Of a DNA stretch of 60,827 bases, positions 50,336-57,329 are shown one piece after another. The stretch is taken from assembly GCA_937944145.1 (NCBI GenBank), contig CALDZK010000002.1:1-60827 (forward strand), written 5' to 3'. Both the position numbers and the translations under genes were made by a program. The first letter of the stretch is position 1. Every line of letters starts with the position of its first letter. The notes under the pieces were generated by a model. The model worked only from the letters and a program-made list of their open reading frames with translations. It made no database searches and was not told the origin of the DNA. The DNA is from an uncultured Candidatus Altimarinota bacterium (GTDB lineage Bacteria > Patescibacteriota > Gracilibacteria > BD1-5 > UBA6164).

Positions 50336-52549
50336 TTATATCTTCTTCACTGGTGCAATCCTAATATTCATTTTCTTCATTCCCTTCCCTGGAAATGCTA
50401 TTTCTGCTAGTTCTCCGTTAAGTGACGTAATAATACCATTTCAAAACTTATGATGATGAACTTTATCTCACATAGAAAAATCAGAAACATTGTTTGATAC
50501 TTTAGGTTTTTGAGTTGCAAAAGTTCCTATAGTAGACTCTCCTAACCCCTGAGAAAAACTGGTAGAAAAACCAGAAAAACTATTACTCCCGACTTCTTCT
50601 TTTATCAGAAGTTCTTCAGGAATCTCTTTGAGAAAACGACTAGCAGGATTGCGTATATAGTCACCGAAATAAAAACGTTCTTTTGCTCGAGATAAAAACA
50701 GTTCTTGCTCCGCACGTGTCATGGCAACATACATCAGCCTACGTTCTTCCTCAAGCTGCTTGGGGTCGGTTATAGAACGATTATGTGGAAATATCCCCTC
50801 TTCGAGCCCAGATACAAATACACGTTTTTGTTCGAGTCATTTAGAGGTATGAATCGTCATAAGTGTGACATAATCTTGTCTTTCATCTTTTGTATCCATA
50901 TCGGTTATAAGAGCAACTTCTTCTAAGAACATAGAGAGTGATTCGCGGGGATTCATACCATTATATTCACTCGCTACATTTTCTAACTCTACAAGGTTGT
51001 CCTGTTTTGATTCTACTTCTTCTTTTGAGAACTCTGTTTGTAAGTATTCCTTGTATCCTATAGATTTTACTATTTCTGAAATAAGTGCAGATACCTCTAA
51101 CCCAAAAGACTTTTCCATAAGTATTTTATATATGTTTCCAAATTCTGTTAGAGCTATTTTTGCAGCATTTCTCAGTTCATCAGCCTCTTCAATATTTTCT
51201 ATAATTTGAAGATAGTTAATACCAAATTGTTCACGATAACTATCTAAAACTTGTATAGACTTTGCTCCTATTTTCCTACTTGGAGTATTAATAATTCTTT
51301 TAAAACTTACTACATCATTTGGATTATGCAGTATTTTCAGATAAGAAAGTATATCCTTTATCTCTTTTCTGTCATAAAACTTCATTCCTCCTACAACTCT
51401 ATATGGCAGATTATTTTTTAAAAGTGCTTCTTCTATTTTTCTTGATTGACTGTTAGTTCTATAGAGTATCAGATTATCTTTTAGATCACCTTCATGTTCT
51501 TTTATATTCTCAGCTATCCAGTTTGCTTCTGCTCCATCATCATAACACTCTCCATAGATTATGTTTTCACCAGAGTCATTATCTGTCCAGAGTTCCTTTT
51601 TTAGTGAATCTTTGTTATTTTTTATAATAGCATTAGCTGACTCTATGATCTTTTTAGTACTTCTATAGTTTTGTTCGAGTTTTACTATAAGAGCCTGGGG
51701 ATAATCTTTTTGAAAATTGAGTATATTTCTCATATCTGCACCTCTCCAACTATAAATTGATTGCCAATCATCACCAACTACTGCAAGATTTTTATATCTA
51801 CTCGCAAGAAGCTTAACTATTTTATACTGAGGAATATTGGTATCTTGGTACTCATCTACCATCAGGTATTTGTATCTTTCTTGATAATGATCGAGTATTT
51901 CAGGTATATTTTCAAGTATTTGCAACGTTTTTACCAGTATATCATCAAAATCTAGAGCATTGTTTTCTCTAAGTTTCTTTTCGTATCTTGTATATGCATC
52001 ATTTACTACTTCTTTTATATGTGTATCTACTTCTTTTCCATACATTTCAGCAGTAATACATTTGTTCTTCGCGTCACTTATATAATAGGCTATTTGCCTA
52101 GGAGGGTATTCTTTTTCTATAAGTCATAAATCGTTTTTGATAATTCCTTTCATGATAGAAAGTTTATCAGATTCATCATAGATAATGAAGTCCTTTTTGA
52201 TTCCTATGACATTCGTAACTTTTTCTTGAATAGATGTATTTCACAGAACTTCTTTGAGAATAAATACTCAAAAACTATGAAATGTTCCTATATAAGGGAT
52301 ATGAGGGTTACGGAAAGCATTTGATATATCCATACCAATACTCTTCCCTATTCTCTCTTTCATCTCACTTGCTGCTTTGTTGGTGAAAGTAACAGCTAAT
52401 ATGCTTGATGGAGTGATATTTTTTTCTGATATCATATGTGCTATGCGTGCGGTGAGAGTAGCTGTTTTTCCACTCCCTGCTCACGCAATAATAAGGAGGG
52501 GGCCTTCTGTCTTCTCAGCAGCCTTTTGTTGCTCTGGATTTAGATTCAT
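50336..52549 (-). CDS. pcrA: UvrD/PcrA-type DNA helicase
   Basis: This 737-residue superfamily 1A helicase unwinds DNA 3' to 5' in repair and replication restart. Motifs in order: [15 protein letters not shown] with the Q motif, [16 protein letters not shown] (Walker A, with TGA for one Gly), [24 protein letters not shown]-like motif Ib, [16 protein letters not shown] (Walker B), [47 protein letters not shown] and [17 protein letters not shown]-terminal tail with an [19 protein letters not shown] tudor-like fold, common in PcrA/UvrD, ends the protein. Full length. Confidence 0.95.
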
Positions 52550-52699: not shown

Positions 52700-53761
52700 A
52701 TGGCAAAACTCAAAAAATACTCCATCATCATAGCAGTTGATGAAAAACATGGGATATGAAAAGATAATTCTATACCATGGAAACTCAAAAACGATCTACA
52801 ACACTTCAAGTCCGTGACCACGACCACAAGAAGTAAGAAGAAACAAAACGTTGTTATCATGTGACGCAAGACTTGGGAATCACTTCCAAAAAGTGTCAGA
52901 CCTCTCCCTGGAAGGATAAACTATATACTCTCCTCTGGATACAAAGAAAACCCCAGTATAAATGCTGATGGGAGTTTTTGATTCAATTCTTTTGAATCAG
53001 CTCATGAATACGCATCTGCCCAAAAAAACATAGAAACCATCTATATCATAGGAGGTTCATACCTCTACAATCTTGTTTTGGACTTAGAGTATTTACAACA
53101 CATATATCTCACTCGTGTATATGGAGACTTCAACTGTGACGTATTTATGTGAAAGATCCCTCCTCATTTCAAAATCACCTCTACATCTGAGAAACAAAAA
53201 GAGTGAAACACAGAGTACCAGATGTTTACTTATAAAAATCAAAAATCCTTTTTCACAGGGGTTTTCTCTCCGCTCTATCTTGTGTTGTGAGTTCTTTTTA
53301 TACTGATACTCTGATACCTACTCTACGCGAGTTTTGCAAACTCCTCTACCCAACCAAAACAAACTCCTGATATTCTCAAAACACAAATAGTTCCCAAACC
53401 TACACTACAAGAAAATAAAGAAGAAACTACTGCACTTCCAGAAAATAATTCTCCATCACAGAAACAAGAGTCTACAAACACAGATATTCCCAAGAAAACT
53501 GAGTCTATAGGATCAGTTACCATACACTATCCAGAAACAGGTATTAGATCTCTTGATAGACAGATACAAAACTATAAAGAAAGAAAAAAAATACTCTACA
53601 AGATCCTCGTGCACAACGCAAGCCTTGAGTCTGAAACTCTTCCAGAGATTACACTTGATTATGAAATAATTTCAGAAACGTCTGATTCTATAACAGTATC
53701 CTTTGTAGAAACAATAAGTGGGAAAATTACCTGAGAAGAAGAACGAGTATATATAAAATAA
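52700..53761 (+). CDS. folA: Dihydrofolate reductase fused to membrane anchor and outer domain
   Basis: DHFR reduces dihydrofolate with NADPH. Residues 1-175 are a normal DHFR: YSIIIAVDEKHGIGKDNSIP, the substrate loop WKLKNDLQHFK with acidic Asp32, MGRKTWESLP, PGRINYILSS, IYIIGGSYLYN and a final FxxY-like EYQMFTYKNQ. The frame then continues with no stop into a hydrophobic helix (about 189-212, LVLGVLFILILGYLLYASFA), a Pro/Ser/Thr-rich linker of about 60 residues, and a final domain of about 90 residues with IHYPETGIRSLDRQIQNYKE and strands. The positive KNQK before the helix predicts DHFR inside and the tail outside. Total 353 residues against about 160 usual. The single reading frame rules out a simple missed stop. 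Confidence 0.88.
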
Positions 53762-53769
53762 TACAAATA

Positions 53770-54183
53770 CTATTTTACAAGAGAGATACTTGGTGATTCC
53801 TCAAGCGAAAAAGAAAGATGATCATCTACTATCTTTTGAATCTCAGAAAAGATATGTGGTATTTCTGTAGATCTATACATAATCTTTTGTAGTATATCTT
53901 TTGGTCCATCGATTCCGCTTATTTCATGGAGAAGCATATCTCTAACCTGAGCGCATTCTTCCCATATTATGTCTTCTAGTAACTCAACATTGTATCATCC
54001 ATCTGCCTGCTTATCTGCGATATCATAAACTCTATCATAGATAGCATCCAGGGCTATCATCGGCCTCTGGGGATCAGTATTATCATTATCTGCAACAAGA
54101 GATACTCCCTCTAATGAAACATAAGCTCAGGGGTGAATTCAGATTTCTCCCTTAGGAAAAATATTTATGATCTCTGCAGACAT
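53770..54183 (-). CDS. Hypothetical small protein
   Basis: This 137-residue protein is not recognised. It starts with a beta-like MSAEIINIFPKGEIGIHPGA segment, has a central RPMIALDAIYDRVYDIADKQ helix, and an acidic C-terminal helix. No membrane segment or signal peptide. It lies 44 bases downstream of the helicase-nuclease gene stop region on the same strand and may be in the same transcript. A possible role in repair cannot be inferred. Confidence 0.58.
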
Positions 54184-54227: not shown

Positions 54228-57200
54228 TTACTTTGTCAATATTTCCTTCCAAAATTCAATATCAGATATCTGTGCCCGGGCTGTTTTGATCTCTTCCAGG
54301 AACTCATTATATTCTTCCTGCGTTGGCTGTATTTCTACCTGTTTATATTTTCCATCTTTTCACTCTACGAAATCTATGGCCAATCCTCCAATAGAAAACT
54401 TTTCCATAAACTCTCTATCATTTTCACTCAGGAGCTTATAGAACAAAAGTTGTCTGAAATACTTTCATTCTCACTGCTTCTTATTTCCATACCTATCAAG
54501 TCACTTGATAGTATTTTCTGTTTTTGTTTTTCCTGTTTTATAGTCTATAAGTTTCACCGTGTCTTTGAAAAATGCCATTTGTCATGCTGTGTCAGCCGAG
54601 TTATTTCAGATTTGACTCGCAGTCTCTCCGAGCTTTTCTACTTTATCTATCGTCCCAGTAAGAGGAATTCACTCAAAAAATATATTTTTCCTACGAAAAG
54701 AATACTCCAAAAGAAAGGGTTCTGACATCTGAGAACTATAGAGATCATAGTATCATTCAAGTCCTTGTATTCCCTTCTCTGTTGCTTCTTCTAGTTCAGA
54801 TGAAGTGAGGAGTTCTTTTTTTATGAGATGCAAAAAAGTAGTAGTGAGATATGATTTTTCAGGAATAATTGCCTCTTGTTTGTACTTCAAGTAAAACAAT
54901 TCTAGAGTTCTATGATACACAGTCCCAAAAGCTGTAAATTTATTGCCACTAAAAGGATAACGAAACACAACTCTATTAAGGAATTCTATAGGACTACTGA
55001 GAAAAGTATTGAGATCTGATGGTGAGAGTCTATAGTTTTCCAAAAACTCTGATATATAATCAAACTCTACTCCAGAGTAGTGTATCAACTTGTTTGAGAT
55101 ATCTGTTTCTACCATTTCTTCGAGTATCCCAGAACTCTTGTAGTCATCTATTTCTGAATAAACTCCTACTATTTCCTCTAAAAATATAGAAGGTAAAAGA
55201 GGTTTTTTGTCTCTTCCTGCTGGAAAAGATAAAAAAAGCTTATTTTTTGACCTAGTCACTGCAACAAAAAAGAGACGTCTCTCCTCCTCGATAGCATTTT
55301 CAGCGAGTTCTTGTATTCATTCTCCAGCTATAGAGTTAGGAAGTTTGAGTTTGTCTGGGATCTTCTTCCCATCCCAGTTACCCGTATAGAGTCCTGGAAT
55401 AAAAACTACCTCATACTCAAGTCATTTTGAACTATGGGCTGTAACGATCTGTACTCACTTTTTAGGTTTTTTTAGGATCTGTCTTTGTATGGGATAGTTA
55501 TACTCTCGGTAGAGAGCAATACGAGAGAGTAGATCATCTACAGAGAAATCACGGGAGTTTTCAGACCAATTTTTTATAGTAGCTAGGAGTGTGTATACAT
55601 CCTGGGTGTCATCAAAACTCCCCTGCTTATGTATATGTTCTAGGAGTTCTATATCCTCTATCAAAAAACTCAAAAACTCCCTGAGACTCATCTCTTGTAT
55701 TTTTGTCCTATACGACAAAAATCTTTCTCTAAAATCCCTCATACCAGATATATCTAGGTCTCATATTATTTGGAGTTTCTGGTCATCTATGAGGACATCT
55801 ATCATTTTTAGAGGGACTTTTCTTCTATAGTTCTCTATATAGAGATACCTATTTATCCTCAGAATATCTATCTGTGATAGCTTCAAGATACTACTACGAA
55901 GTATGTGTATAAAATTCGTATCGTTTGCGTGAGGGTTTTGGACTATCATAAGAAAATCCAAAATAAAAGATACATAGTGTGACTGGAGAATATTACTCTG
56001 CAATTTCGACTCTGACTCTATCCCATTTTGCGAGAGTAGAGTAGACCATTTTTTTACTTCTTTGTTGTTCCTGACTATGATGGCGATTTCCTCTATAGGA
56101 GTACCTAACGCAAGCTCTCGTGTAATATGGTCATATATATATGCGTCCTCATCCGTCTCATTTTGTGCTCTATAGAGAGTAGGAATTTCTTGTGAATTTG
56201 CGTATTTTCCAGCAGATATGAGTTCTTTTTCTAGAGTTTTTATACTATTTGTGAGTCTCGTATCATTGTGCTCTATCAGGGTTTTGGCCGTATCAAGTAT
56301 CTGTTGATTTGAACGGTAGTTATTTCTCAGAACAATAAACTTGGTATCTGGATACACCTGATAAAAATCAAGCATATTTTCTATATTTGCTCCTTGAAAA
56401 CGATAGATAGACTGGTCATCATCTCCAACCACCATGATATTTCCAGAACTACTATCATCACCCGAAAAACTCGATGGATCTTCACTCAGTATAAGCTGAA
56501 TAATTTCATTTTGTGAATTATTTGTGTCCTGATACTCATCAAGCATAATAAACTGAAAGAGTTCTGCGTAGTGAAGTCTCAGTTCTTCGTCTTGGCGAAA
56601 CTCCTGAACTACAAACTGTATCATATCGTTGAAATCATATCTCGAATGATCTCTGAGATACTGATTATACGCTCTATATAGATACTCTAGTTCTGTCAGC
56701 TTCTCTATATGCTTTGCTTGTTTTTCTTTGGTAGTTTCGTATTTTTTGAGAGTAGGTTTTATTTCAGCGAGTTCTTCTTCATAAATTCCTACTTGTTTCT
56801 TCGTCAAGATACTAAGTCTATCAGGAGTAACTCATTCTTGCTTGAGAGTAGAAATACGTGACTTGATATCACGGAGATAATAGAGTGGATCATAATCAGA
56901 AGTCAGTGCAGTTATAGATCCGTTTTGTATTTCTTTTTCAAGTATATTTCTCAGTATCTCCATCTGATCTACATCATCTATAGAAACCCCTGCTTTATAA
57001 GCTATAAACTTCTCTGGGAAGGTCTGAATAACTTCCTGAGAAAATCAGTGAATCGTCGATACCTGAACTTTATAAGCATCTTCTCCGATAAAGTCCAAAA
57101 GTCTCTGTCTAATAGCGACAACTCCTGCTTCTGTAAAAGTCGTAATAAATATATTCTCAGGATTGAGTCCTGCTTTGAGAATAATATTTGCAGCACGGAG

Positions 57201-57329
57201 GGCAATGATCTGAGTCTTCCCTGTTCCTGGTCCTGCAACTACCATGATAGGACCATAGAGCGTATCTACGGCATCTTTTTGCTCAGGGTTGAGCATATCA
57301 TAGTTTTTTTGAAAATCTTTTGTGTTCAA
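54228..57329 (-). CDS. UvrD-family helicase with C-terminal RecB-like nuclease
   Basis: This 1033-residue protein has an SF1A helicase core followed by a PD-(D/E)XK nuclease, as in AddA/RecB-type enzymes that process DNA ends. Helicase motifs: LNPEQKDAVDT, VVAGPGTGKTQIIALRA (Walker A), FTEAGVVAIRQRL, FIMLDEYQDTNNSQNEI (Walker B), VVGDDDQSIYRFQGANIENM, NNYRSNQQI and VQIVTAHSSKGLEYEVVFIP. The C-terminal nuclease shows SPSDLNTFLSSPIEFLN, a GTVYHRTLE helix, LTGTIDKVEK and the catalytic LIDYKTGK. No AddB partner is adjacent. The start is a TTG at 57329; no ATG is available in frame upstream. Confidence 0.9.

Follow-up and report, generated by a model that had tools for sequence, protein, structure and literature searches.

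We describe a gene of an uncultured Candidatus Altimarinota bacterium (Gracilibacteria, BD1-5) in which a complete dihydrofolate reductase (DHFR) continues without a stop into a transmembrane helix, a linker and an orphan outer domain (Table 1), and which is probably the product of a lineage-specific fusion between the sole folA of this genome and a sequence encoding a single-pass membrane protein, such that a cytosolic DHFR would be tethered to the membrane. The gene lies in a window of 60,827 nucleotides, by which we mean the whole stretch of DNA that was analysed. Textbooks present DHFR as a soluble enzyme, and it is a drug target; the domain arrangement that we observe for it here is new, occurs in a single genome and includes an orphan partner domain. 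Should the fused protein be produced, an enzyme that is both essential and cytosolic would be anchored through its C-terminus and would carry an outer domain. We found no description of a naturally membrane-spanning DHFR in the open-access papers covered, and the phrase ‘membrane-bound dihydrofolate reductase’ returned no paper in the open-access literature.

Table 1. Features of the DHFR fusion gene and its neighbours, in window coordinates.
Feature	Position	Strand	Basis
UvrD/PcrA helicase gene, syntenic neighbour transcribed divergently from DHFR	50336..52549	-	
DHFR domain, residues 1-182; Trp27, Asp32, Arg72, Gly118-Gly119 and Thr138 kept	52700..53245	+	Pfam, PDB alignment, column conservation
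Met175, inside last DHFR strand and in frame; no other ATG between 53151 and 53420	53222..53224	+	frame and alignment
Predicted transmembrane helix, residues 184-213; hydrophobic core 192-210 (53273-53329)	53249..53338	+	hydropathy, model
Predicted disordered linker, residues 211-264	53330..53491	+	composition, model
Orphan outer domain, residues 265-353, ~85-90 aa	53492..53758	+	model; no family match
TAA stop, first in-frame TAA/TAG	53759..53761	+	frame analysis
137-aa ORF between fusion end and RecB-like gene, no family match above any cut-off	53770..54183	-	
RecB-like UvrD-helicase/PD-(D/E)XK gene beyond the tail, syntenic neighbour	54228..57329	-	

Read with translation table 25, in which TGA encodes glycine, positions 52700-53761 of the plus strand are open from ATG to TAA and encode 353 amino acids with eight in-frame TGA codons; the same frame is broken under table 11, and the claim of a fused frame therefore depends on the genetic code. 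Code 25 is the validated code of Gracilibacteria (PMC6851277), and many in-frame TGA codons occur in long frames throughout the window. The frame stays open for 171 further codons after the DHFR (P ~0.002 by chance, from the per-codon frequency of TAA and TAG), and this opening across DHFR and tail is not due to chance. For the tail itself, the coding score in frame 0 is 0.248 bits/codon, above that of all 1000 dinucleotide shuffles, while its other five frames have negative coding scores and 2 to 11 stops. Its GC content by codon position (0.444/0.357/0.257) lies beside that of the window's other genes (0.458/0.320/0.273), and its codon usage is typical of them. Third-position GC is higher in the DHFR domain (0.374) than in the tail (0.257) or the other genes (0.273), a gap that may reflect different histories of the two halves but does not show separate genes. 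The original prediction of one uninterrupted gene running from DHFR through membrane helix and linker to an outer domain is thus borne out by a single table-25 frame. The source genome is a draft with an estimated completeness of 98.01%.

The enzyme domain is unambiguous, matching Pfam DHFR_1 (PF00186) over residues 8-176 with an E-value of 4.9e-35 and 121 bits against a gathering cut-off of 25. It had been described as a standard DHFR ending at residue 175; a complete DHFR it is, but its best structural relatives by sequence (PDB DHFRs) align up to residue 182, which puts the domain at about residues 1-182. The six residues W27, D32, R72, G118, G119 and T138 occupy positions that are near-invariant among 39 aligned DHFRs and are conserved here, so that the active site is intact at the level of sequence. 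Since no second DHFR was found in the genome, the fused protein presumably does the essential DHFR work. Thymidylate synthase is encoded separately, by thyA on another contig (G000:C10), and the 353-aa protein has no match to PF00303. Identity of the DHFR domain to most same-family relatives is ~36-48%, and other DHFRs from the candidate phyla radiation (CPR) complemented an Escherichia coli folA deletion (PMC11974145).

Beyond the DHFR, the protein contains one hydrophobic segment, LYLVLGVLFILILGYLLYA, with a Kyte-Doolittle mean of 2.51, and the helix that surrounds it is confident in a single-sequence structure model (core pLDDT 88-94). The protein accordingly has the make-up of a single-pass membrane protein, with one hydrophobic helix of ~20 residues and no N-terminal signal, and the membrane helix claimed from the sequence is borne out. 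Topology is likely N-inside/C-outside: the N-terminus is without signal or hydrophobic stretch, and the DHFR end is K-rich. This was also the orientation first proposed, with DHFR in the cytosol and the tail outside, on the strength of the charge pattern; it remains the likely topology, but the flanking charges favour it only slightly, with two positive and no negative residues among the 15 before the helix and one of each after it. The reverse orientation is unlikely on general grounds, because it would require signal-less export of an NADPH-dependent enzyme. The 54 residues of the linker comprise P 7, S 6, T 8, Q 6, N 5, K 5 and E 5, with no glycine.

The outer domain is predicted, at low to medium confidence in the single-sequence model, to have a strand-helix-strand-strand order. 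It has no Pfam or other family match and is without relatives in the class (353 genomes). For the tail, neither 287 genomes drawn across the phylum nor the family sample, GTDB contigs or phages contained a homologue, and the full 353-aa protein was not found in viral contigs. Comparison of tail homologues across CPR genomes, suggested at the outset as a check, therefore returned none in either the class or the phylum sample, and an outer tail serving as a sensor or a conserved device gains nothing from a sequence that is without homologue and absent from the other checked DHFRs of the order; a functional linkage of folate reduction to the outer domain can at most be inferred. Weak tail matches (E 4e-4 to 0.07) were to unrelated proteins sharing only a transmembrane segment and a low-complexity linker. 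With a 99-residue model, the matches from Foldseek and VIA-align were likewise no more than weak and mixed (best E 0.42; highest Z 6.7). The strand order and a Tyr-Pro motif prompted us to consider a PdaC/RsiV-type domain (PF13739, DUF4163), an identity that is unsupported by Pfam (no match) or by hhalign (probability 3.6%); nor does DUF4163 have a match in this genome at E 0.1 or better. As a separate observation, PdaC/DUF4163-type proteins (L093-L097) occur in some members of the order, with five matches at E <=1.4e-4, three of them above the Pfam cut-off.

The fusion is a singleton, present in one genome. DHFR was found in 49 of 60 relatives, and the ~58 DHFRs of the same order stop at the DHFR fold, save for short C-terminal extensions. 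In table-25 genomes the listed frame lengths stop at TGA, and translations were therefore read directly; with code 25, the relatives' DHFRs all end at the fold or within ~15 residues of it. Across the class, DHFR occurs in 263 of 353 genomes, and among the matches listed for the class none of the longest DHFR frames that were read is a C-terminal fusion. Judged from these translations, we regard a tailed DHFR as firmly absent from the rest of the order and only provisionally so from the rest of the class. Several long DHFR frames in the class (297 aa in G179, 238 aa in G203, and others) owe their length to an upstream open frame and are not C-terminal fusions. The only other genome of the same genus (G001, 77% complete) has no DHFR match and is uninformative on the fusion, because the contig bearing its UvrD end breaks off at that point. 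Two genomes of the same family (G013, locus L019; G014, locus L006) carry a divergent DHFR (27-32% identity) whose closest grouping is with the DHFRs of a different family within the order, which suggests gene replacement.

The locus itself is conserved. In G034, a genome of another genus in the same family, the order UvrD(-), DHFR(+), RecB-like(-) is as in the window, and its DHFR ends at residue 190 without a tail. Because the neighbours match on both sides of the junction, the tail has been inserted or fused into a locus that is conserved in other respects, and the tail-less arrangement of G034 is, from this comparison, likely the state before fusion. G034 has no ORF at the position of the window's 137-aa ORF. 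The DHFR of G027 also lies beside UvrD, and in many other family members DHFR instead adjoins thyA, as judged by sequence likeness of the neighbour gene.

A different kind of C-terminus was observed in genus g13, where five DHFRs (L032, L117, L034, L118, L120; genomes G034, G063, G027, G062, G064) have 10-15 extra C-terminal residues predicted to form cationic amphipathic helices: IFKKIKQFFKK, VLEKIKSLFKK, FIQKIKNIFHK, KFMDKFLHYFKK and ISLIKKIFQG. Their moments are 0.56-0.83, four of the five being at least 0.68, a value that 6.8% of 220 background C-termini reach, and such a cationic helix is absent from most other family members. These tails resemble MinD-type membrane-targeting helices. MinD binds membranes via an amphipathic helix (PMC13246001). 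If the g13 tails bind membranes as well, tethering of DHFR would have arisen by two different devices in the family.

We propose that, in one lineage, folA was joined to a coding sequence for a transmembrane helix, a flexible linker and a small outer domain. Being translated ahead of the rest, the DHFR domain would fold in the cytosol, and the late hydrophobic helix would then be inserted as a C-terminal internal signal-anchor with the C-terminus outside, so that DHFR activity would be held at the inner membrane face with ~140 residues outside. The enzyme would keep its ordinary job, the reduction of dihydrofolate to tetrahydrofolate for thymidylate synthesis, with thyA elsewhere in the genome; the cell would tolerate the tether or gain slightly from it, and the outer part might keep its pre-fusion envelope role. 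From the sequence we infer expression as one chain, insertion in the N-in/C-out sense and retained activity, and our default is that a chance fusion was retained as harmless.

It is very unlikely, in our judgement, that the gene is an artefact, either of two neighbouring genes run together through loss of a stop or of a chimeric contig, even though the junction is confirmed in no close relative and the draft genome comprises 18 contigs. The original prediction had pointed to an indel between 53220 and 53290 that hides a stop as the way in which two genes might look like one. The nearest out-of-frame stop is at 53233, and frame 0 keeps the C-terminal strand of the family (F/M-x-x-Y-K) beyond it; a frameshift there would damage the DHFR and not restore a natural end, because the frame-0 homology runs past it. 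A separate downstream gene would moreover lack a start codon between 53225 and the interior of the membrane helix, since the sole ATG, at 53222, lies in the last DHFR strand, and GTG at 53282 and TTG at 53285 are inside the transmembrane segment. On this frame analysis a hidden indel, and with it any two-gene or sequencing-error reading, is unlikely. One contig carries both the tail and its flanks, and the gene order across the junction, shared with G034, argues against a chimera. The same ATG bears on whether one gene might give two products, either by cutting of the fusion or by additional translation of the tail from 53222 (MFTYKNQKSFFTGVF...). Met175 is a possible internal start for a tail-only product: no other ATG lies near the junction, and this one is in frame, immediately ahead of the membrane helix, and stands where 89% of relatives have Phe. 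Yet no clear Shine-Dalgarno motif lies upstream of it (AGTGAAACACAGAGTACCAG), no stop is available to end a short DHFR, and a start there would leave part of the last DHFR strand ahead of the membrane helix. We thus regard two products as improbable, and the resulting coexistence of a soluble DHFR with a separate membrane protein, in which tethering would be incidental, as equally so.

A further reading extends the fusion that we favour and is not exclusive of it, namely that DHFR in this clade is deliberately membrane-held, by a transmembrane helix here and by an amphipathic helix in g13; we think this possible though doubtful. Perhaps coupled to host folate exchange, such an arrangement would place folate reduction beside folate uptake or exchange at the membrane of a presumed episymbiont, a suggestion we make only tentatively. 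It is encouraged by the cationic amphipathic helices on all five g13 DHFRs of this type and by the position of two of these (G034 and G027) beside UvrD. It also fits the physiology, in that genes for folate one-carbon metabolism occur in a Gracilibacterium (BD1-5) genome from which those for folate biosynthesis are missing (PMC6851277), while folate genes are common in CPR and sharing of folate with hosts has been proposed (PMC11974145); the membrane is the surface where such exchange would occur. However, the g13 helices have few residues and come from five sequences of shared ancestry, and the DHFR tree does not resolve g13 as sister to the window genome. With the window fusion and the g13 tails together, membrane organisation of folate chemistry in some CPR bacteria becomes testable.

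Compared with known systems, the window protein has in common with standalone bacterial FolA (PF00186) the fold and the near-invariant catalytic residues; those relatives, in the sequences tabulated, end at ~157-200 residues without transmembrane or outer domain, whereas the window protein adds 171 residues, so that its chain neither ends after the fold nor is free of a membrane segment. A C-terminal helix of the MinD type, which the short g13 tails resemble, is a device that would recruit an enzyme from the cytosol to the membrane, and the window protein differs in having a full transmembrane helix and an outer domain. The N-terminal part of NCBIfam PRK00478 (a segregation/condensation protein A model of 505 positions) matches the window DHFR (E 6.9e-10), which suggests that other bacterial DHFR fusions exist, though with a different partner and no transmembrane tail matched. 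In the DHFR-thymidylate synthase of protozoa and plants, DHFR is the N-terminal part of the fusion, as it is here, but the partner there is an enzyme that acts in the same pathway and is cytosolic, whereas in the window protein it is a transmembrane helix with an orphan outer domain.
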